A DNA stretch of 64,000 nucleotides, from the NCBI RefSeq assembly GCF_013112485.1, contig NZ_JABFHG010000003.1, forward strand, positions 62,001 through 126,000, written 5' to 3'. Under the pieces are notes generated by a model. That model was not told the origin of the DNA. It saw nothing but the letters and a program-made list of their open reading frames with translations, and ran no database searches. Below are positions 16,194 to 38,352 of this stretch, piece by piece. Position 1 is the stretch's first letter. Each line of letters opens with the position of its first letter. The translations under genes and the position numbers were made by a program. Origin of the DNA: Roseicella sp. DB1501. Lineage in GTDB: Bacteria > Pseudomonadota > Alphaproteobacteria > Acetobacterales > Acetobacteraceae.

Positions 16194-17627
16194 GTGGTCG
16201 CCATCACCTCGCCCGCCTTCAAGGAGAATGCCGCCCGCGCCCTGGCCGATCCCGGCCTGCAGAAGGCGCTCGGCACCGCCAAGGGCGCCTTCCTGCAACG
16301 GCGCGCCCAGGCCGTGGCCAACCTGCCGGAGTTCGAGCAGCTCCGGAATATCGGCCGCGACATCAAGAACCACACCCTCGCCAATCTCGACTTCTACCTG
16401 GAAGCCTATGAGAGCAAGGTGAAGGCGGCCGGCGGTCAGGTGCACTGGTGCAGCACCGCCGACGACGCCCGCGCCGCGGTGCTCGAGATCTGCCGTAAGG
16501 CCGGCGCCAGGACGGTCACCAAGGGCAAGTCGATGATCTCCGAGGAGCTCGGGATCAACGCGCATCTGGAAGCCCATGGCATCCGCCCGGTCGAGACCGA
16601 TCTCGGAGAGTACATCCTGCAGCTCCGCCAGGAGCATCCGAGCCACATCATCGCCCCCGCCTTCCACCTCAACCGCGAGGATTGGGAGGCGGATTTCCGC
16701 CGCCTGCACACCGACCTGCCGCCCGACCGCGTCTTCCACGAGCGGCGCGACATCCTGGCCGAGGCGCGTACCAAGCTGCGGGAGAAATTCCTCGCCGCCG
16801 ATGTCGGCATCACCGGCGCCAATTTCCTCATCGCCGAGACCGGCAGCAGCGTCATCGTCACGAACGAGGGCAATGGCGACCTGACCCAGACCCTGCCGCG
16901 GGTCCATATCGCCCTCGCCTCCATCGAGAAGGTGGTGCCGACGCTGGAGGATGCCTGCAACATGCTGCGGCTGCTGGCGCGCAGCGCGACCGGGCAGGAT
17001 TTCTCCGTCTACACCACCTTCAGCACCGGCGCCCGGCGCGAGGGCGACCTCGACGGGCCGGACGAGTACCATGTGGTGCTGGTGGACAACGGCCGCTCCA
17101 ACATGATCGGCACCGAGTTCCAGGAGATGCTGCGCTGCATCCGCTGCGCCGCCTGCATGAACCACTGCCCGGTCTATGGCGCGGTCGGCGGCCATGCCTA
17201 TGGCTGGGTCTATCCCGGGCCGATGGGCTCGGTGCTCACGCCCTCCCTCGTCGGCATCGAGAAGACCGGGCTGCTGCCCAACGCCTCCACCTTCTGCGGC
17301 CGCTGCGAGAGCGTCTGCCCGGTGAAGATCCCGCTGCCCGGCATGATGCGCCACTGGCGGGAGCGGGAGTTTGAGCGGCACCTGACGCCCGCGGCGCAGC
17401 GGACCAATATCGGCCTCTGGGCCTGGTTCGCCCGCCGCCCCACCGTCTATCGCTGGGCGACGCGGGCGGCGATCGGCGCGCTCGGCCTGCTCGGCCGCGG
17501 CAAGGGCGCCTTCCATTCCCTGCCGCTCGCGGGCGGCTGGACCAAGGGGCGCGACCTGCCGGTGCCCGAGCCCGGCGGCACCTTCATGGCCCGCTACGCC
17601 AAGGCGCGGCGCGGGCAGCGGGTCTGA
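16194..17627 (+). CDS. lutB: Lactate utilization iron-sulfur protein LutB/LldF
   Basis: 477-residue subunit of the LutABC L-lactate oxidase complex, which oxidises lactate to pyruvate at the membrane. A LUD domain fills the N-terminal 300 residues (TVTKGKSMISEELG, ITGANFLIAETGS). Two ferredoxin-like Cys clusters follow, CIRCAACMNHCP near residue 317 and FCGRCESVCP near 367, for [4Fe-4S] binding. The start is GTG at 16194, with CAGGAG seven bases upstream. lutA is not in front of it; a GFA-family gene separates it from lutC. Confidence 0.94.
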   Translation: MVAITSPAFKENAARALADPGLQKALGTAKGAFLQRRAQAVANLPEFEQLRNIGRDIKNHTLANLDFYLEAYESKVKAAGGQVHWCSTADDARAAVLEICRKAGARTVTKGKSMISEELGINAHLEAHGIRPVETDLGEYILQLRQEHPSHIIAPAFHLNREDWEADFRRLHTDLPPDRVFHERRDILAEARTKLREKFLAADVGITGANFLIAETGSSVIVTNEGNGDLTQTLPRVHIALASIEKVVPTLEDACNMLRLLARSATGQDFSVYTTFSTGARREGDLDGPDEYHVVLVDNGRSNMIGTEFQEMLRCIRCAACMNHCPVYGAVGGHAYGWVYPGPMGSVLTPSLVGIEKTGLLPNASTFCGRCESVCPVKIPLPGMMRHWREREFERHLTPAAQRTNIGLWAWFARRPTVYRWATRAAIGALGLLGRGKGAFHSLPLAGGWTKGRDLPVPEPGGTFMARYAKARRGQRV

Positions 17628-17630
17628 CGC

Positions 17631-18044
17631 ATGGCCCCGCCGCTGCGCGGCAGCTGCCTCTGCGGCGGCCTGCGCTACGAGATCGCCGGCCCGCTGAGCG
17701 GCGCGCTGCATTGCCATTGCAGCCTCTGCCGCAAGGCCCACGGCGCCGTCTTCCGCTCCCGCGCCGCCCTGCGCCGGGCCGATTTCCGCTGGATCCAGGG
17801 GGAGGACCTGCTCGCCGGCTACCGCTCCTCGCCCGGCACCACCCGGCATTTCTGCCGGGTCTGCGGCTCCAGCCTCCTCTCCTCCTTCGACGACCGGCCG
17901 GAGGTGCTGGGGCTCGCCCTCGGCACGCTGGACGACGATCCCGGCCTGCGCCCGGCGTTGCATGTCTTCGTCGGCTCGAAAGCCCCATGGTACGAGATCA
18001 CCGATGACCTGCCGCAATACGAGACCCTGCCGGGTGAGGGCTGA
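17631..18044 (+). CDS. GFA family zinc protein
   Basis: 137-residue protein of the GFA family (glutathione-dependent formaldehyde-activating-like, CENP-V fold). Zinc ligands are seen in GSCLCGGLRY, HCHCSLCRKAHGA and FCRVCGSSL, all in the usual order. It starts three bases after lutB and ends six bases before lutC, so it is inside the operon. Most members of this family have no proven formaldehyde activity; the role here is unknown. Confidence 0.9.
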   Translation: MAPPLRGSCLCGGLRYEIAGPLSGALHCHCSLCRKAHGAVFRSRAALRRADFRWIQGEDLLAGYRSSPGTTRHFCRVCGSSLLSSFDDRPEVLGLALGTLDDDPGLRPALHVFVGSKAPWYEITDDLPQYETLPGEG

Positions 18045-18050
18045 GCCGCG

Positions 18051-18815
18051 ATGAGCAAGGACGCCATCCTCGGCGCCATCCGCCGCGGGCTGAAGCGCGG
18101 CCCGCTGCCGGCCGACCAGCAGGCGATGCTGGCCGGGCGGCTGGCCAGCCATCCGCGCCACCTGATCCCGGCCCGCTCCCGCCTGCCGCGGCCGGACCAG
18201 GTCGCGCTCTTCGTGCGCAATGTCGAGAAGGAGTTCGGCACGGTCGAGCGGGTGCCGGACCTTGCCGCGGTGCCGGCCGCGCTGGCGGAATACCTCGCGG
18301 CGCAGAACCTGCCCTCGCGCTTCGTCCTCGCGCCCAACCCGGATTTCGAGGGCATTCCCTGGACCGATCGGCCGCTGCTCACCTTCGAGCGCCGCCGGGC
18401 GCAGGCGAGCGACCAGGTCAGCCTGCAGCATGGCTGGGCCGGCATCGCCGAGACCGGGACGCTCATGCTGCCCTCCGGCCCTGGCCGGCCGACGACGCTG
18501 AACCTGCTGGCGGAGACCGAGGTGGTGGTGCTGCGCGCCAGCACCATCGTCGGCGCCTATGAGGAGGCCTGGGACCGGCTGCGGGCGGAAAGCCACGACG
18601 TCCGCTCGGGCGGCTTCATGCCGCGCAACATCATGTTCGTCACCGGCCCCTCGCGCTCGGCCGATATCGAGCAGACGCTGGAGCTCGGCGCGCATGGCCC
18701 GCGCCGCCTGCACGTCATCCTGGTGGATGACGATGCCGCCGCCCTGCCCCCCGGCGACGCCACCCCGCCGCCGCCCGTGGCGGTGCCCGGCGGGCCCGCC
18801 GCCCCGGGCGACTGA
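18051..18815 (+). CDS. lutC: Lactate utilization protein LutC
   Basis: 254-residue LUD-domain protein, the third subunit of LutABC. Features include an N-terminal basic helix, RPLLTFERRRAQ, GWAGIAETGTLML and the C-terminal NIMFVTGPSRSADIEQTLELG characteristic of LutC/YkgG. The extreme C-terminus is a proline-rich tail (from about residue 230) not needed for the fold. Cotranscribed with lutB and gfa, and followed 10 bases later by an Smr-domain gene. Confidence 0.92.
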   Translation: MSKDAILGAIRRGLKRGPLPADQQAMLAGRLASHPRHLIPARSRLPRPDQVALFVRNVEKEFGTVERVPDLAAVPAALAEYLAAQNLPSRFVLAPNPDFEGIPWTDRPLLTFERRRAQASDQVSLQHGWAGIAETGTLMLPSGPGRPTTLNLLAETEVVVLRASTIVGAYEEAWDRLRAESHDVRSGGFMPRNIMFVTGPSRSADIEQTLELGAHGPRRLHVILVDDDAAALPPGDATPPPPVAVPGGPAAPGD

Positions 18816-20613: not shown

Positions 20614-21252
20614 TCACCGCAGCAACACCCCGTGCCCGCGCAGGAAATCCAGCAATGGCAGCAGCGGCAGGCCAAGGATGGCGCTGTGCTCGCCCTCGAC
20701 CCGGGCGAAGAGCTGCACCCCCGGCCCCTCCAGCCGATAGGCCCCAACCGAGGACAGCACCGCCTCGCCCTCGGCCGCCAGATAGGCTTCGAGGAACTCG
20801 TCGCCGAAGGCGCGCATGGTCAGCCGCGGCCGCGCCAGGTGCTGCCAGACCCGCGCGCCGCGCCGCCAGCAGACCACGGCAGAGACCAACTCATGCGTGC
20901 GGCCGCGCAGCGCCCGGAGATGCGCCCGCGCCCCCGCCATGTCCGCCGGCTTGTCGAACCAGCGCGGGCGCCCCGCCTCATCCGGGCAGACCAGCATCTG
21001 GTCGGCGCCGATGACCAGCGCCTCGGGATGCCGGCGGGCGATCCGCTGCGCCTTGGCCTCGGCGAGCAGCATGGCGGCATCCTCGGGCGGGATGCCCTCG
21101 GCCTGGGCGCTCGCCTTGATCGCCGCCTCGTCGACCGCCGCCGCCACGGCGGTGAAGGCGAGGCCGGCGCCACGCAGCACCGCCTGCCGCGCGGATGAGG
21201 CGGTGGCGAGGATCAGGGGCGGGTCCTCGCGCTGCAGCCGGACGGCGGTCAT
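20614..21252 (-). CDS. maf: Maf family nucleotide pyrophosphatase
   Basis: 212-residue house-cleaning pyrophosphatase that hydrolyses non-canonical NTPs to NMPs. Family motifs are [12 protein letters not shown] near the N-terminus (phosphate loop), VIGADQMLV (catalytic Asp region), [14 protein letters not shown], and [12 protein letters not shown]. The start overlaps the ppsR stop by four bases (ATGA), so they form an operon. It lies on the left side of the putative origin. Confidence 0.93.
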
Positions 21253-22172
21253 GCCCTCTGGCCCGCCGGCTGCGCCACGGCCCCGCCCGAGCCCTGGCCG
21301 CCGTTCTGGCCGGGGGGCGGCGTCGCCTGCGGGCCCTCCTGGTTGCGGCGCATGTGCCAGGCCTCCATGAGCTGCAGCACGGTCGCCGCCGTCTCCTCGA
21401 TGCTGCGGCGGGTGACGTCGATCACCGGCCAGCCGCGAGCGGTGCAGAGCCGGCGTGCCGCCAGGATCTCGGCCTTCACGCTGTCGGGGTCGATATAGTC
21501 GGTGGTGCTCTGCCGCACGCCGTCGGCGCCGATCAGCCGCAGCCGGTGGCGGCGGATCTCGATCAACGCCGCCGCCTCGATGGTCAGCCCCACCACCGGG
21601 CAGCGCGGCGTCTCCAGCTCCGGCGGCAGCGGCGCGCCGGGGACGATCGGCACGTTCGCCGCCTTGATGCCGCGATTGGCGAGGTAGAAGCAGGTCGGCG
21701 TCTTGGAGGAGCGGGAGACGCCGACCAGGCAGACCTCCGCCTCATGGATCCCGGCCGTGCCCTGGCCGTCGTCATGCGCCAGCACGAAATGCATGGCGTC
21801 GATCCGACGGAAGTAGTCGGCATCCATCACGTGCTGCGCCGCCCGCTTCTCCTTGGCCTGGGCGCCGATCTGCCCCTGCAGCAGGTCCATCACCTGGTCG
21901 AGCACCGAGAGGCAGGGCACGCCGAGCCGCTCGCAGACCTCCTCCAGCGCATGCCGCAGGCTGCGGTCCACCAGGGTGAAAAGCACCGGCCCGGGCTCGT
22001 GCTGCAATCCTTCCAGCACCCGGTCGAGCTGCAGGCGGGAGCGGATGAGGCTCCAGCGATGGTGGACGACGTGATGGTCCTCGAAGCGGGCGAGGGTGGC
22101 CCGGGCGATCGAGTTCAGCGTCTCGCCCGTGCTGTCGGAGACCAGGTGGAGGTTGATGGCGCGCTGGGACAT
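21249..22172 (-). CDS. ppsR: Pyruvate, phosphate dikinase/PEP synthase regulatory protein
   Basis: DUF299 (Kinase-PPPase) protein of about 307 residues, a bifunctional Ser/Thr kinase and pyrophosphorylase controlling pyruvate phosphate dikinase or PEP synthase. [13 protein letters not shown] marks the N-terminus, the P-loop-like [15 protein letters not shown] lies near residue 150, and the tail is a low-complexity Gly/Gln/Pro run. ATG 22172 gives MSQRAIN; the frame is open further upstream by chance. It reads away from the putative origin and is coupled to maf. Confidence 0.93.
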
Positions 22173-22474
22173 GGGGTGGAGAATAGCGTGGACCGCGGGG
22201 GATACCGGGGAAAACCCTGGCGTCCCGGCGGGTTGCCTGGGAAACGGGTTGACGAGTCCGGTCCGAACCGACCGGCGGGAGGATCGCGACGGGGTCTGAT
22301 GGGGGAATCCGCACGACTCCAATTCATCCCCAGGATTCCACCGAGTCGCCGACTCACGCGCCTGTGGACCGGGCTGTGGATGGTTCGCGAAACAATTGTC
22401 TCCACATTGTCCACAGGCCTCTACAAGCCCCACCACCTTTTAAGACTCCTGTTTTCTTGCGAGAGAGTGCGGCC
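22173..22474. other. oriC: Candidate chromosomal replication origin (oriC)
   Basis: This 302-bp divergent gap between ppsR and hemE holds four TCCACA-core DnaA-box-like sites in 53 bp: complement at 22363-22371 and 22375-22383, direct at 22398-22406 and 22407-22415 (TTGTCCACA, one mismatch from TTATCCACA). Six GANTC sites lie at 22254, 22315, 22334, 22343, 22351 and 22444. An A/T-richer stretch, 22436-22460, could be the unwinding element. The origin lies beside hemE in Caulobacter and Rickettsia, and parAB/parS are 14 kb away here. Confidence 0.72.
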
Positions 22475-23536
22475 ATGGAGAGCGAACGTCCCGCGGCAGG
22501 CCTGCCCAAGCCCCTGCTCCGCGCCCTGGGCGGCGAGGCCGTCTGGCCGCCGCCGCTATGGCTGATGCGCCAGGCTGGCCGCTACCTGCCGGAATACCGG
22601 GAGGTGCGGGCCCAGGCCGGCGACTTCGTCACGCTCTGCACCACGCCCGAGATGGCGGCCGAGGTGACGCTGCAACCCATTCGCCGCTTCGGCATGGACG
22701 GGGCGATCCTCTTCTCCGACATCCTCATGGTGCCCTGGGCGATGGGGCAGAGCCTGCGCTTCGCCGAGGGCGAGGGGCCGCAGCTCGACCCGGTCCGCGA
22801 TGCCGAGGCGATGGCGGCGCTCGACCACAACCTGGTGGTGCAGCGGGCGGCGCCGATCTTCGAGACGGTGCGGCTGGTCCGCGCCGCCCTCGACGCCCAT
22901 GCGCCGCGCGTCGCGCTGATCGGCTTCGCCGGCAGCCCCTTCACCGTCGCCTGCTACATGGTGGAAGGCCATGGAAGCCGCGACTTCGCCATCCCCCGCA
23001 GCCTCGCCTTCACCGAGCCGCTGCTCTTCGGCAAGCTGATCCGCCAGCTCGTCGACGCCACCACCGCCTATCTGCTGGCCCAGGCCGAGGCGGGGGCCGA
23101 GGCGCTGATGCTCTTCGACAGCTGGGCCGGGCTGCTGCCGCCGGCGCAGTTCCGCCGCTGGGTGATCGAGCCGACGGGGCAGATCGTCCGCGCCATCCGC
23201 AAGGTGAACGCAACCATCCCGATCATCGGCTTCCCGCGCCTCGCCGGGCCGATGCTGGCGGAATACGCGCAGCGCACCGGCGTGCAGTGCCTCGGCCTCG
23301 ACACGACGATGGAGCTGCGCTGGGCCGCGGGGGCGGTGGCGCCGGGGCAGGCGCTGCAGGGCAACCTGGACCCGCTGGCCCTGGTCGGCGGCGGCATGGC
23401 GCTGGAGGCGGAGACGCGCAGCATCCTCGGTGCCATGCGCGGCCGGCCCTACATCTTCAACCTCGGGCATGGCATCGAGAAGGTGACGCCGCCGGAGCAT
23501 GTCTCGGCCCTGGTGCGGCTGGTGCGGACGGGCTGA
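22475..23536 (+). CDS. hemE: Uroporphyrinogen decarboxylase
   Basis: Cytoplasmic enzyme converting uroporphyrinogen III to coproporphyrinogen III in heme synthesis, 353 residues. The N-terminal signature MRQAGRYLPEYR starts near residue 31; FSDILMVPWAMG and GFAGSPFTVACYMVEG are the other family blocks. ATG 22475 follows GAGAGAG. First gene of a hemE-hemH-HAD-hemJ cluster. It stands directly right of the candidate origin, as in other alphaproteobacteria. Confidence 0.97.
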   Translation: MESERPAAGLPKPLLRALGGEAVWPPPLWLMRQAGRYLPEYREVRAQAGDFVTLCTTPEMAAEVTLQPIRRFGMDGAILFSDILMVPWAMGQSLRFAEGEGPQLDPVRDAEAMAALDHNLVVQRAAPIFETVRLVRAALDAHAPRVALIGFAGSPFTVACYMVEGHGSRDFAIPRSLAFTEPLLFGKLIRQLVDATTAYLLAQAEAGAEALMLFDSWAGLLPPAQFRRWVIEPTGQIVRAIRKVNATIPIIGFPRLAGPMLAEYAQRTGVQCLGLDTTMELRWAAGAVAPGQALQGNLDPLALVGGGMALEAETRSILGAMRGRPYIFNLGHGIEKVTPPEHVSALVRLVRTG

Positions 23537-23588
23537 ACAGGTCGCGGGGCGGGCTTGACCTGCCCCGCCGGCATGTCATCTCCGCCGC

Positions 23589-24713
23589 ATGGACCAAACC
23601 GCGCCCGCCGGCCCGCCGGCCGAGTCCCAAGGCCAGGCCGGCGGCCGGCGCGTCGCCATCGTGCTGTTCAACCTCGGCGGCCCGGACCGCACCGAGAGCG
23701 TCCGGCCCTTCCTGCGGAACCTCTTCCTCGATCCCGCCATCCTGCGGGTGCCGGGCTTCGTCCGGCCCTGGCTGGGGCGGCTGATCGCCTGGCGGCGGAC
23801 CCGGGCAGCGACGGAGAACTACGCCATCCTCGGCGGCGGCTCGCCGCTGCTCGCCCTCACCGAGGCGCAGGGGCGGGCGCTGGAGGCGGCACTGGCCGGG
23901 GACGCCGCGACCTATCGCTGCTTCGTCGCCATGCGCTACTGGCACCCGATGAGCGAGGCATGCGCCCGCGACGTCGCCGCCTGGCGGCCGGACGAGGTGC
24001 TGCTGCTGCCGCTCTACCCGCAATTCTCCACCACGACGACCGGCAGCAGCCTGCTTGCCTGGGAGGCGGCAGCGCGGGCGGCCGGACTTGCCGTGCCGAC
24101 CACCACGCTTTGCTGCTGGCATTCCGATCCCGGCTTCGCCGCGGCGACGGCCGGGCTGGTGCGCCAGGCCTGGGAGGCGGCGCGGGCGGCGCTGCCGGCC
24201 GGGGTGGGGCTGCGGCTGCTCTTCTCCGCCCATGGCCTGCCCGAGAGCATCGTGAAGGCCGGCGATCCCTATCAGTGGCAGGTGGAGAGGAGCGTCGCCG
24301 CGGTGACCGCCCGGCTCGACTTGCCGGAGCTCGACCACCAGGTCTGCTACCAGTCGCGGGTCACGCCGCAGACCTGGCTTGGCCCCTCCATCGAGACGGC
24401 GCTGGAAGAGGCGGCGCGGGACCGGGTGGCGGTGCTGGTCTGCCCGATCGCCTTCGTCTCCGAGCATTCCGAGACGCTGGTCGAGCTCGACGTGGAATAC
24501 CGGGAGGTGGCGGAGCGGCTCGGCCTGCCGGGCTATTTCCGCGTGCCGGCGCAGAACAGCGACCCGGCTTTCATCGCCGCCCTGGCCGGCCTCGTGCGCG
24601 GCGCCCGGGCCGGCGGCCGCGCCCTCTGCAGCTTCGCCGGCGGCCGGCAATGCCCGAAGCCCTTCGGCGACTGCCCGCATGCCCGCGCCCGGCAGGAGAC
24701 CGTCGCCGCATGA
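23589..24713 (+). CDS. hemH: Ferrochelatase
   Basis: Inserts Fe(II) into protoporphyrin IX, the last heme step, at the membrane surface; 374 residues. VLFNLGGPD opens the fold, the catalytic His is in SAHGLPESIVKAGDPY (His near 215) and the acid in SEHSETLVELD. The C-terminus has two Cys (GGRQCPKPFGDCPHA), too few by sight to call an iron-sulfur cluster. The first 18 residues are a flexible Gln/Ala/Gly-rich extension. ATGA overlap with the next gene shows coupling. Confidence 0.97.
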   Translation: MDQTAPAGPPAESQGQAGGRRVAIVLFNLGGPDRTESVRPFLRNLFLDPAILRVPGFVRPWLGRLIAWRRTRAATENYAILGGGSPLLALTEAQGRALEAALAGDAATYRCFVAMRYWHPMSEACARDVAAWRPDEVLLLPLYPQFSTTTTGSSLLAWEAAARAAGLAVPTTTLCCWHSDPGFAAATAGLVRQAWEAARAALPAGVGLRLLFSAHGLPESIVKAGDPYQWQVERSVAAVTARLDLPELDHQVCYQSRVTPQTWLGPSIETALEEAARDRVAVLVCPIAFVSEHSETLVELDVEYREVAERLGLPGYFRVPAQNSDPAFIAALAGLVRGARAGGRALCSFAGGRQCPKPFGDCPHARARQETVAA

Positions 24714-34155: not shown

Positions 34156-34219
34156 GATCGCGGTCAGGCTGGTCACGGCCCCACTTCGTGGCATGGCGCG
34201 GCTTCGCTATACCCCTGCC

Positions 34220-36091
34220 ATGTTCGACGCATTCTTCGATGTGGTGGTAATCGGCGGCGGCCATGCCGGCTGCGAGGCCGCCGCGGCCGCCGCGCGCTGC
34301 GGCGCCCATACCCTGCTGTTGACCCACCGGATCGAGACACTGGGCGAGATGTCCTGCAACCCGGCGATCGGCGGGGTGGGCAAGGGACATCTGGTGCGCG
34401 AGGTGGATGCGCTGGACGGGCTCATGGGCCGCGCGGCCGATGCTGCCGGCATCCATTTCAAGCTGCTGAACCGCAGCAAGGGCCCGGCCGTACGGGGGCC
34501 GCGGGCCCAGGCCGACCGCGCGCTGTACCGCCAGGCGATCCAGGCCCTACTGCGGGCGACCGAGGGCCTGACCATCGCGGCGGAGGCGGCCGAGGATCTG
34601 GTGACCGGGGCGGAGGGCGAGGTCATCGGCGTCGTCACGGCGACTGGCCAGCAGATCCGCGCCGGCGCGGTGGTCATCACGAGCGGCACCTTCCTGCGCG
34701 GCATGATCCATATTGGCGAGACGCGTATCCCGGCGGGCCGGGTCAGCGAGGCGCCATCCATCGGCCTCTCGGACACGCTGCGCCGGTTGGGCCTGCCACT
34801 CGCCCGGCTGAAGACCGGCACGCCGCCGCGGCTGGATGGACGCAGCATCGACTGGGCGGCGCTGGAGCCGCAGCCGGGTGACGATCCGCCCGAGCCGCTC
34901 TCCTGGATGACGGAGCGGATCACCAACTCGCAGCGCCCTTGTGCCATCACCGCCACCACGCCGGCGACCCATGACCTGATCCGCGCCAACCTGCATCGCA
35001 CCGCCGTCTATGGTGGGCGGATCGAGGGGGTCGGACCGCGCTATTGCCCTTCCATCGAGGACAAGGTGGTGCGCTTCGCCGACCGCCAGCGCCACCAGAT
35101 CTTCCTCGAACCGGAGGGGCTGGAGGATGACACGGTCTATCCGAACGGCATCTCCACCAGCCTACCCGAGGCGCTGCAGGCGGCGCTGATCGCCTCGATT
35201 CCGGGGCTGGAGCGGGCCCGCATCCTGCGGCCCGGCTATGCGATCGAATATGACCATGTGGACCCCCGCGCGCTGACGCCAGCGCTGGAGGTTCGCACCA
35301 CACCGCGCCTGTTCCTCGCCGGTCAGATCAACGGCACCACGGGCTACGAGGAGGCGGCGGCGCAAGGTCTCCTGGCGGGGATCAATGCCGCGCGCCGGGC
35401 TGGAGGAGCAGTCCCCGATCGGATGCTCGGCCGGAGCGACGCTTATGCCGGCGTGATGGTCGATGACCTGATCTTGCAAGGGGTGACCGAACCCTATCGG
35501 ATGCTCACAGCTCGGTCCGAGTTCCGCCTAGCGTTACGCGCCGACAATGCCGGGCTGCGCCTGACCGAGAAAGGCATCGCCTGGGGCGTGGTGGGCAGCG
35601 ACCGCGCCGCAGCGCACCGGGCCTTTGTCGCCGCGTTGGAAGCGGCCATGGCCCGCGCGCGTACGGAAGGAGGCTCGCCAGCCTGGTATGCAGCGGCTGG
35701 GGTGACGGTGAACCAGGATGGCCGTTGGCGCAGCGCGCTGGAGGCGCTGGCCTTGCCGGTGATGACGCGGACCGATGCAGACCGTATCTTCCCTTGGCTG
35801 CGCGAATTGCCGCGTCGGGTGCGGTCCGAGCTTGAGGCCCAGGCCCTTTATGCGCCCTATCTCGAGCGTCAGGCCGCAGAACTGCGGGCCCTGGCGCGGG
35901 AGGAGCAACTCGCCATCCCAAAGGGGATTGATTTCGCCTTGGTGCCAGGTCTTTCGGCAGAGATGCGGCAGCGTCTGATGCAAGCCCGACCGGCTACGCT
36001 TGGTAGTGCGGGACGCATCCCCGGCATTACGCCCGCCGCGCTGGCAGCGCTGGCCGTTCACCTTCGGCGTGGCGAGGTGCGTTTCACGTGA
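34220..36091 (+). CDS. mnmG: tRNA uridine-5-carboxymethylaminomethyl modification enzyme MnmG
   Basis: 623-residue FAD protein, partner of MnmE. The dinucleotide-binding [10 protein letters not shown] begins near residue 11, followed by [24 protein letters not shown] abbreviated to CNPAIGG and [10 protein letters not shown], and [16 protein letters not shown], both GidA signatures. Start at 34220 ([14 protein letters not shown]) fits relatives; ATG 34193 adds nine residues. Neither has a clear ribosome site. The stop lies inside a parS site and overlaps the rsmG start. Confidence 0.97.
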
Positions 36092-36094
36092 AAC
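36081..36094. promoter_or_regulatory. parS: parS site 1
   Basis: GTTTCACGTGAAAC is a perfect 14-bp palindrome matching the ParB-binding consensus core. It contains the mnmG stop codon (TGA 36089-36091) and the rsmG GTG start (36088-36090). ParB loads here as a CTP-dependent clamp for chromosome segregation. parA and parB follow within 1.5 kb. Confidence 0.93.
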
Positions 36095-36696
36095 AGCCGA
36101 TCTTGGATGTTCCACGTGAAACCGAGGAACGGCTTCGGTCCTTCGTCGCTTTGCTGCAGCGCTGGAACGCGCGCATCAACCTGACAGCCGAACGCAATGC
36201 CGAAGACCTATGGCAGCGGCACGTGCTGGATTCGCTGCAACTCGCACCGCTCTTGCCGGATCGGTCGAGCCCGTTGGTCGATCTCGGGTCAGGTGCCGGG
36301 TTTCCCGGTCTGATCCTCGCTATGGCCACCGGCCACGAGACGCATCTGATCGAATCCGACCGCCGGAAGTCGGCTTTCCTGATCGAGGCGAGCCGCGCCC
36401 TGGCGCTGCGCCATGTGACCGTGCATCCGAAGCGGATCGAGGCTGCGACGTTGCCGAAGGCGACGATCCTCACCGCCCGCGCCCTCGCCCCGCTCACGAC
36501 CCTGTTGGGCTATGCCGCATCGATCCTGGCCCCGGACGGCGTTGCGCTGTTTCCAAAGGGCCGGAGCGTCGAGCAGGAATTGACGGACGCTGCACGCGAC
36601 TGGATCATGCGCGTCGAGCGCATTCCGAGCCGCACCGATCCGGCCGCCACCATCCTTCGTATCAGCGAGATTCGTCCTGCCGGCTCCCCCATCTGA
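36088..36696 (+). CDS. rsmG: 16S rRNA (guanine527-N7)-methyltransferase RsmG
   Basis: 202-residue SAM-dependent methyltransferase acting on the small ribosomal subunit RNA. SAM-binding motif I is [12 protein letters not shown] near residue 64, preceded by RHVLDSLQL and the NLTA motif. The GTG start at 36088 overlaps the mnmG TGA (GTGA). Its 3' end overlaps the apparent parA start by 20 bases. Confidence 0.96.
36109..36122. promoter_or_regulatory. parS: parS site 2
   Basis: GTTCCACGTGAAAC, one change from site 1 and equal to the common bacterial form TGTTCCACGTGAAAC. It lies 28 bp (centre to centre) from site 1, inside rsmG codons 8-12. The CACGTG core is intact. Confidence 0.92.
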
Positions 36697-37480
36697 CCGG
36701 GCCCGCCCCCGCGTCATCGCCTTCGCCAACCAGAAAGGTGGCGTCGGCAAAACCACGACCGCGATCAACCTCGCCACCGTCATGGCGGCGCAGCACAAGG
36801 TTCTGCTCCTGGACCTCGATCCACAGGGCAATGCCTCCACCGGGCTCGGGATCGAGCGGGCGGAACGCGGGGCTGGCACCTATGCGCTGCTGGTCGATGG
36901 CCGGCCGCTCGCGGAATTGCTGCGACCGACGCCGGTGCCGACGCTGCAACTCGTCCCGGCCGATGCCGACCTGGCTGGTGCGGAGGTCGAACTGGTGACC
37001 ATGGAGGACCGCGAGCGCCGGCTGATCCAGGCCCTGACGGCGGATCCGATTCTGATGGCTCAGTTTGACTACATCTTGCTGGATTGCCCGCCTTCCCTTG
37101 GGCTTCTGACGCTCAATGCCCTCGTCGCGGCGCATAGCGTGCTTGTGCCGTTGCAAACCGAATTCTTCGCACTGGAGGGCGTCAGCCAGATCACTCAGAC
37201 GATCGAGCGGGTGAGGCGCGCCCTCAACCCAACTCTGGCGCTCGAAGGCATCCTGCTGACCATGTACGATCGCCGGAACAACCTCTCCGAACTCGTAGCG
37301 CAGGACGTGCGCGGCTTTTTCAAGGACAAGGTATTCGAGACGGTGATCCCGCGGAACATCCGGATCAGCGAGGCGCCCTCGCATGGTCTGCCCGTCAGCC
37401 TCTACGATGCCCGCTCGCCCGGGGCGCAGGCCTATGCCGCCCTCGGCGCTGAATTGCTGCGGCGGGAGAAGCGGGCATGA
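36677..37480 (+). CDS. parA: Chromosome partitioning ATPase ParA, apparent CTG start
   Basis: 267-residue Walker-type ATPase moving ParB-parS complexes. The deviant Walker A KGGVGKTT needs residues upstream of the first ATG (36782), yet the frame has no ATG, GTG or TTG there. CTG at 36677 gives [19 protein letters not shown], a good family N-terminus. Later motifs are LLLDLDPQGNAS and YILLDCPPSLG. The stop overlaps the parB start (ATGA). A start at 36782 would remove the P-loop, so it is excluded. Confidence 0.93.
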   Translation: MPAPPSDRARPRVIAFANQKGGVGKTTTAINLATVMAAQHKVLLLDLDPQGNASTGLGIERAERGAGTYALLVDGRPLAELLRPTPVPTLQLVPADADLAGAEVELVTMEDRERRLIQALTADPILMAQFDYILLDCPPSLGLLTLNALVAAHSVLVPLQTEFFALEGVSQITQTIERVRRALNPTLALEGILLTMYDRRNNLSELVAQDVRGFFKDKVFETVIPRNIRISEAPSHGLPVSLYDARSPGAQAYAALGAELLRREKRA

Positions 37481-38352
37481 GCGGCGCCAAGAAGCCGATG
37501 CGACTGGGCCGTGGTCTCTCCGCCCTGCTCGGCGACGCAGCTGCGCCGATGCCCGCGACGCAGGCTCCTGCGAGCGCCCCCAGCGAGGGCGGGATCCGCA
37601 CCCTGCCTGTCGAGATGCTGGAGCCCGGCCCCTTTCAGCCCCGCGGCCCGATCGACCAGGGCCCGTTGCAGGAGCTTGCCGACAGCATCAAGGAACATGG
37701 CGTACTGCAGCCGATCCTGGTGCGGGAGAAGCCGGGCAGTCCTGGCCAGTATCAGATCATCGGCGGCGAGCGCCGCTGGCGAGCCGCGCAGCTCGCGCAA
37801 CTGCACGAGGTGCCGGTCCTGCTGCGCAACCTCGATGACCGGGCGGCCATGGCGGCGGCGTTGGTCGAGAACCTGCAGCGTCAGGACCTCAACGCTCTGG
37901 AAGAGGCCGAGGGTTTCCGCCGCCTGATCGACGAATTCGGCCTTACCCAGGACCAGCTTGGCCAGGCGGTGGGCAAGAGCCGCAGCCATGTGGCGAACAC
38001 GCTTCGTCTGCTCGCCCTACCGGAGCGGGTGCGAGAGTTGCTGCGCGACGGGGCGCTGACCGCCGGCCATGCCCGCGCCCTGCTGACCGCCCCGGATGCC
38101 GAGGCGCTGGCGCTGCAGGTGGTCGATCGCGGGCTAAACGTGCGGCAGACCGAGGCGCTGGTCGCCGCCAAGCCGCGCGAGCCCAATGCCCGGCCCGCGG
38201 TCGCGCCGGAAACCCAGGCGCTGGAGCGCGATCTGTCCACGCGCTTGGGGCTGCGGGTGAGCATTCGCCATGGCGGCCGTGGCGGCCAGGTGACGATCCA
38301 GTATCGCGATCTGGACCAACTCGACGGCTTGGTCCGCCTGCTGACTCCCTAA
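37477..38352 (+). CDS. parB: Chromosome partitioning protein ParB
   Basis: 291-residue CTP-dependent clamp that binds parS. The N-terminal basic segment LGRGLSALLG would contact ParA, the CTP-binding box II is GERRWRAA near 97, and the KorB/HTH domain has LTQDQLGQAVGKSRSHVAN. A C-terminal dimerisation domain ends the chain. Coupled to parA. The cognate parS sites are 1.4 kb upstream. Ends 10 bases from convergent holA. Confidence 0.97.
   Translation: MSGAKKPMRLGRGLSALLGDAAAPMPATQAPASAPSEGGIRTLPVEMLEPGPFQPRGPIDQGPLQELADSIKEHGVLQPILVREKPGSPGQYQIIGGERRWRAAQLAQLHEVPVLLRNLDDRAAMAAALVENLQRQDLNALEEAEGFRRLIDEFGLTQDQLGQAVGKSRSHVANTLRLLALPERVRELLRDGALTAGHARALLTAPDAEALALQVVDRGLNVRQTEALVAAKPREPNARPAVAPETQALERDLSTRLGLRVSIRHGGRGGQVTIQYRDLDQLDGLVRLLTP

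Follow-up and report, generated by a model that had tools for sequence, protein, structure and literature searches.

The 302 bp gap between the divergent genes ppsR and hemE is very probably the DnaA-dependent chromosome origin of Roseicella sp. DB1501, a member of the Acetobacteraceae. This assignment is well supported by the gene neighbourhood, by DnaA boxes that are conserved among relatives, by the polarity of GGGNAGGG in two of these, by parAB and a pair of parS sites at a distance of about 14 kb, and by the lack of a box cluster at dnaA, and it bears out the preliminary description, in which replication was proposed to start here. An origin at this position is in itself ordinary and expected for the class; the less ordinary feature is its load of GANTC, the target of CcrM, and it is possible that CcrM gates initiation in the gap.

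The ppsR–hemE gap and its DnaA boxes

The Roseicella sp. DB1501 assembly is a draft of 47 contigs (5.99 Mb, 98 % complete), and the window, by which we mean the whole stretch of DNA analysed, comprises 64 kb (bases 62001–126000) of a 584-kb contig. The genes near the gap include maf, ppsR, hemE, hemH, rho, mnmE, mnmG, rsmG, parA and parB. The features are as follows, in window coordinates.

21249–22172, minus strand: ppsR (PF03618, 284.7 bits)
22173–22474, no strand: proposed chromosome origin (oriC), the whole ppsR–hemE gap, from motif counts, shuffles and alignment; one of 90 distinct gaps compared
22197–22215, minus strand: degenerate DnaA-box-like block, ppsR-proximal, with family consensus TGTGGAt..cGGGGA.aac (alignment of 90 gaps)
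22254–22355, no strand: six GANTC (CcrM) sites, at 22254, 22305, 22315, 22334, 22343 and 22351, each aligned in 18–37 of the 90 gaps
22363–22371, minus strand: DnaA-box-like site, TCCACA core at 22363–22368, the core lying within a conserved block
22375–22383, minus strand: DnaA-box-like site CCATCCACA (motif count, 90-gap alignment)
22380–22459, no strand: A+T-richer stretch, likely unwinding region to judge from base composition
22398–22406, plus strand: DnaA-box-like site GTCTCCACA, family consensus at the same place TCCcC (motif count, 90-gap alignment)
22407–22415, plus strand: best DnaA box, TTGTCCACA, nearest hemE, one mismatch from TTATCCACA
22421–22423, plus strand: weak candidate for a first DnaA-trio (CTA), preceded by the spacer GGCCT (trio count over gaps)
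22444–22448, no strand: hemE-proximal GACTC, a positionally conserved GANTC, aligned within 2 columns in 71 of the 90 gaps
22475–23533, plus strand: hemE, uroporphyrinogen decarboxylase (PF01208, 373 bits)
34193–36091, plus strand: mnmG (gidA) (GIDA, 544.7 bits)
36080–36095, no strand: parS site, one mismatch from the consensus
36108–36123, no strand: parS site, two mismatches from the consensus
36782–37480, plus strand: parA (AAA_31, 140.6 bits)
37477–38352, plus strand: parB (ParB_N, HTH_ParB, ParB_C)

The named sequence that best matches ppsR comes from Roseicella frigidaeris (95 %), and we take PF03618 to be the DUF299/COG1806 gene. No Rfam RNA was found in 21000–24000 at gathering scores. 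Two LUD-domain genes at 16194–18815, one of which has 4Fe-4S domains, resemble a lactate-utilisation pair and are presumably lutB and lutC. The two parS sites (36080–36123), whose starts are 28 bp apart, lie around the end of mnmG and the start of rsmG; parAB, parS and gidA had been named as clustering near alphaproteobacterial origins. According to an excerpt of PMC8116508, parAB is close to the origin in almost all of the genomes analysed there, the exceptions including some in Rhodospirillales.

The gap holds four of the 12 TCCACA cores of the window, at 22363(−), 22375(−), 22401(+) and 22410(+), which span 53 bp (22363–22415); a recount gave the same number, two per strand, as had been described. 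Four or more were seen in none of 5000 dinucleotide shuffles of the gap (mean 0.16), and within the 264 kb that were read of its own 584-kb contig the gap is the densest 100-bp window for this core (four, with two at the best place elsewhere). The box nearest hemE, TTGTCCACA, is the one reported previously as a single mismatch from consensus; three other 9-mers in the window are equally close to TTATCCACA (5140, 49211 and 56109), and a perfect TTATCCACA occurs neither in the gap nor anywhere in the 64-kb window. The G+C content of the gap is 0.626 as against 0.707 for the window, and the A/T-richer stretch that had been noticed before hemE is evident in 60-bp windows starting at 22380–22420, where A+T reaches 0.48–0.50 compared with 0.29 for the whole window.

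Both ppsR and hemE are present in 109 of 111 loci (our own genome included, and some genomes twice), and in all 109 the two genes are divergent and lie only a short gap apart; the remaining pair comprises the CcrM locus and L102, a stretch that breaks off at 59 bp from ppsR. The 109 loci yield 90 distinct gaps, which include that of the window and some near-copies, and since the named loci were the best 80 of 406 and the HemE loci the best 30 of 117 genomes with a match, these gaps lean towards near relatives. TCCACA occurs at 9.2 per kb in the gaps and at 0.19 per kb in their flanks, with a median of three per gap and a minimum of one. Alignment of the 90 gaps reveals conserved blocks on both sides: TGTGGAt..cGGGGA on that of ppsR and, on that of hemE, two TGTGGA, then TCCcC, then ATCCACAGG. 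This last element is the family consensus of the box at 22407–22415, and each of its letters is kept in at least 80 % of the gaps. The ppsR-proximal block (22197–22215) probably represents weak DnaA boxes.

Of the 76 gaps with the last box, 44 have the trinucleotide CTA no more than 8 bp after it (0.16 in shuffles; the 14 gaps of 90 without the box sought were left out), two consecutive DnaA-trios are found in 10 of the 76, and the window has one trio only. The match to the BUS, which consists of two DnaA boxes, a spacer and a run of DnaA-trios (PMC8287927, excerpt), is therefore partial, with a last box, a short spacer and CTA in the 44 gaps; a clear version, with CTACTACTA, is present in L259 (G066:C1:947472–949271). 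This locus, from a small-genome member of the Acetobacteraceae, has 13 TCCACA in the 450 bp before hemE, many of them in full TTATCCACA boxes, and its array ends with the box TTATCCACAGG, a GC-rich spacer, CTACTACTA and an A+T-rich run before hemE; ppsR was not found beside hemE in this locus. We note that of 20 further Acetobacteraceae (L242–L261) only seven have ppsR next to hemE in the 1.6 kb that were read, and the origin neighbourhood thus seems to be broken in part of the family.

The experimentally identified origin of Caulobacter lies between hemE and COG1806, and the same pair is found in Rickettsia (PMC1914354, excerpt), in agreement with the earlier statement that oriC is beside hemE in Caulobacter crescentus and Rickettsia. 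The Caulobacter crescentus Cori and the Rickettsia origin resemble the gap described here in their flanking genes, in a cluster of DnaA boxes and in a short, A+T-richer gap, although theirs exceed 400 bp (PMC1914354, excerpt). Cori also differs in having five CtrA sites and one IHF site (PMC1914354, excerpt), whereas no CtrA-like (TTAA-N7-TTAA) or IHF-like site lies within two mismatches of the consensus in the gap of the window.

GANTC sites in the gap and its relatives

There are 48 GANTC sites in the window, seven of which are in the gap (22254, 22305, 22315, 22334, 22343, 22351 and 22444); the preliminary description had six within 195 bp, of which the span is right and the number one too low. 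Seven or more are rare in 5000 dinucleotide shuffles of the gap (P 0.0004; mean 1.66), and in the 264 kb read of its own contig no 200-bp window elsewhere has more than three, as against seven in the gap. Over the 90 gaps the frequency is 16.4 per kb, with a median of four, as against 0.80 per kb in the flanks, and 464 sites were observed where dinucleotide shuffles predict 132.5, although only 57 of the 90 gaps are individually above their shuffles at P<0.05. Two gaps have no GANTC and the richest has 14 sites in 317 bp. When the gap is set against the GANTC-richest 300-bp window elsewhere in its locus (75 of the 90 loci, shorter ones being dropped) it has the higher count in 59, ties in seven and loses in nine; one of the relatives sampled below, G102, has 12 sites in 300 bp at its origin and no more than five in any window elsewhere in the 391 kb that were read.

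Six of the seven sites of the window's gap are aligned in only 18–37 of the 90 gaps, so most GANTC sites are not kept in place; conservation in sister genomes had been put forward as a check, and at least one DnaA core is kept in 90 of 90 gaps. The seventh site, at 22444, is the conserved GACTC, whose first base is 31 bp before hemE. This looseness of position speaks for the view that the gap is the origin but that its GANTC sites serve only the transcription of hemE and ppsR, or are a by-product of mutation or drift, with no role in initiation, a view that we regard as evenly poised between right and wrong. It also draws on the two gaps that lack GANTC in genomes that encode CcrM, and on the judgement, in an excerpt of PMC3973325, that CcrM is not required for the control of initiation in Caulobacter, where a ccrM deletion in minimal medium gave a wild-type-like DNA-content profile. 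Several features of the sites run the other way. Among gapped palindromic pentamers GANTC alone is strongly enriched (13.6-fold relative to whole loci; next is TTNAA at 3.4-fold). Its density in the gap is unrelated to that of the flanks (Spearman −0.09, P 0.40; 89 of the 90 loci, a shorter one being dropped), the flank medians of GANTC-rich and GANTC-poor gaps being 0.69 and 0.79 per kb (P 0.34); local GANTC density was rejected as the cause of high origin counts, there being no flank correlation. The sites are most frequent in the middle deciles of the gap, which hold few DnaA cores, and form a lesser peak close to hemE; high counts are scattered over several clades.

Gaps with at least seven GANTC (26 of 90) require eight changes on a PpsR+HemE tree, at least six of them forced by well-supported branches, in a quick search with SH-aLRT support only and an arbitrary root, so that gains are not told from losses; at thresholds of five and eight sites the changes number 17 and five, respectively. 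Counts per gap are 11–14 in Roseomonas in the narrow sense, 8–11 in the Belnapia clade and 0–5 in the Neoroseomonas clade, and in the Roseicella/Paracraurococcus clade five of the seven rows have 7–9 and the other two have three and five. More distant gaps carry fewer sites: 6.4 per kb, or 1.7 times the mononucleotide expectation, in 35 genomes from other families in which ppsR adjoins hemE (40 genomes were sampled among the upper ranks of the 94 that matched HemE, and the five dropped had 2–7 GANTC in the 450 bp before hemE). Seven more distant Acetobacteraceae have 5.6 per kb (20 were sampled and those with ppsR used; the 13 dropped had 1–4 GANTC). The strong load is thus particular to part of the Acetobacteraceae, and among the literature matches listed, most subscription papers being outside the scope of the search, there is no report of GANTC-dense origins in this family.

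It is improbable that the central GANTC-rich segment is instead the binding site of some other protein, acting independently of methylation, whose motif contains GANTC by chance. The commonest start-to-start spacing of the sites is 8 bp (30 pairs in the 90 gaps, for example GAGTC-GCC-GACTC, and 23 of 224 pairs in the 26 GANTC-rich gaps), and G or C occupies the middle position in 248 of the 464 gap sites compared with 69 of 196 in our own contig, both of which would suit such a motif. However, many other spacings occur, all four letters are found in the middle position (G 130, A 125, C 118, T 91), as fits the degenerate N of CcrM, and a close CcrM homologue is present in 43 of the 44 genomes searched. 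No GANTC overlaps a DnaA core (0 of 464), and we do not press this avoidance as a signal, since the letters that an overlap would need are already disfavoured by the box consensus.

A possible methylation step in initiation

Roseicella sp. DB1501 encodes a CcrM-type protein (PF01555 with RAMA) on contig 45. The one genome searched that lacks a close CcrM homologue is that of Roseomonas sp. MO-31 (G145, L076), whose gap has two GANTC and whose assembly may be incomplete. The two gaps with no GANTC belong to two close relatives, Roseomonas rubea (L063) and Neoroseomonas nitratireducens (L066), which have CcrM homologues of 79 % and 78 % identity, respectively. GcrA is also encoded in the genome, although it is not known to act at origins, and a search for the SeqA family, in which the E. 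coli positive control matched, gave no hit in the 98 %-complete draft.

At the origin that we place in the ppsR–hemE gap, DnaA would be expected to bind the inverted box pairs at 22363–22415 and the weaker ppsR-proximal block, and to melt the A+T-richer stretch in the direction of hemE, starting at the last box (22407–22415). The dense CcrM sites, which fill the middle of the origin between the two groups of boxes, would probably be hemimethylated from the firing of the origin until CcrM acts late in the cycle, if the timing is that of Caulobacter, and the hemimethylated state may either delay re-firing or tune transcription of hemE and ppsR through a reader such as GcrA. This methylation step, to which site density and gene content point, is offered tentatively, and we consider it somewhat less than an even prospect.

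One parallel is in E. coli, whose oriC has 11 GATC in about 245 bp. There, as here, methyltransferase sites are dense inside a DnaA origin; E. coli uses Dam and GATC together with SeqA, whereas CcrM and GANTC would be used here, SeqA was not found, and sequestration is only hypothetical. Several GANTC sites are also reported within the Caulobacter origin (PMC3973325, excerpt), as compared with up to 14 in a relative. The secondary replicons of Agrobacterium offer a second parallel. Over-expression of CcrM leads to over-initiation at ori2, for which GANTC hemimethylation was proposed to prevent re-firing and was likened to the Dam/SeqA system (PMC11514494, excerpt), and repABC origins have been called GANTC-rich (PMC6090056, excerpt); these origins are started by RepC, however, whereas that of Roseicella is a primary origin of the DnaA type.

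For such primary origins the control of initiation by CcrM is unsettled, since the Caulobacter deletion indicates that CcrM is not required and over-expression, cited as giving extra chromosomes, that it can matter (PMC3973325, excerpt), while ori2, with its RepC origin, suggests a role like that of Dam and SeqA (PMC11514494, excerpt). Origins of the Roseomonas–Belnapia–Roseicella group have a density of target sites like that of E. coli oriC, and the occurrence of GANTC-dense origins beside relatives with 0–5 sites, in the Neoroseomonas clade, amounts to a natural experiment. As a hypothesis, the GANTC-dense origin could be a variant form in which initiation is gated by GANTC. In its fullest version, which we think rather unlikely as a whole, a DnaA-type primary origin would have been repeatedly packed (or unpacked) with CcrM sites in this group, up to 7–14 in about 300 bp, and hemimethylation would act as a once-per-cycle timer, analogous to Dam/SeqA control but based on CcrM, and operating without SeqA and, in the origin of the window, without detectable CtrA sites.

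Strand polarity and the position of the origin

Because our own genome is in too many pieces for polarity to be tested along the whole chromosome, the largest contigs of two relatives were sampled, each being assumed to be a closed circle: a 5,479,657-bp contig of G088, in 60 stretches of 10 kb (600 kb), and a 4,328,147-bp contig of G102, in 20 stretches (391 kb), with hemE at 4152 kb. Eight G-rich motifs were counted in G088, four of them special cases of GGGNAGGG, which we take to be the FtsK-orienting motif of E. coli and which was named first among the eight and then carried to the scan of both relatives. With the origin set at hemE, GGGNAGGG occurs 149 times on the leading and 59 times on the lagging strand in G088, and 119 and 45 times, respectively, in G102. 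An unguided antipodal scan of G088 gives a best position of 575–600 kb, compared with 566.8 kb for hemE/ppsR (permutation P 0.0004, for height), and the G102 optimum is at 3925 kb, which is 227 kb, or about one sampling step, from hemE (P 0.0002, for height). All eight motifs are commoner on the leading strand of G088 for an origin at hemE, with best positions of 250–1050 kb.

Plain GC skew, which had been suggested as a check, gives a divided answer. In G102 it is maximal for the same split of stretches that hemE gives, and its minimum agrees within the 218-kb sampling; in G088 the minimum is at 1.80 Mb and not at hemE (0.567 Mb), the fit being weak (R2 0.21). For an origin at hemE in G088 the leading-strand coding share is 0.508 (best 0.561, at 2.5 Mb) and the third-position skew 0.006 (best 0.014, at 5.25 Mb), and in the 264 kb read of our own contig neither GC skew, with its minimum at 14 kb, nor GGGNAGGG turns at the gap. 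We rejected plain GC skew as a locator because its scatter per stretch is larger than the signal and the polarity of GGGNAGGG is much stronger, though the result counts against the origin reading; GC skew is described as insufficient in several alphaproteobacteria (PMC1914354, excerpt). An origin at dnaA was also rejected, since that gene, which is on a different contig, has a single TCCACA in its surrounding 4.4 kb.

That the gap is only the divergent promoter region of ppsR and hemE, under GcrA/CcrM and with DnaA as a transcription factor, and that replication starts elsewhere, is very improbable: the enrichment of GANTC in intergenic regions of most alphaproteobacterial chromosomes (PMC8116508, excerpt), the conserved GACTC just before hemE and the G088 GC skew are in its favour, but GGGNAGGG polarity turns at the gap in G088 and near it in G102, every gap has a DnaA core, the gap mostly exceeds the rest of its locus in GANTC, and a scan of 22100–22560 found no sigma-70-like promoter, though such scans miss promoters of other types. 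No terminator was found in that interval either. With the origin in the ppsR–hemE gap, these results suggest that GGGNAGGG polarity is able to locate an origin where plain GC skew fails.
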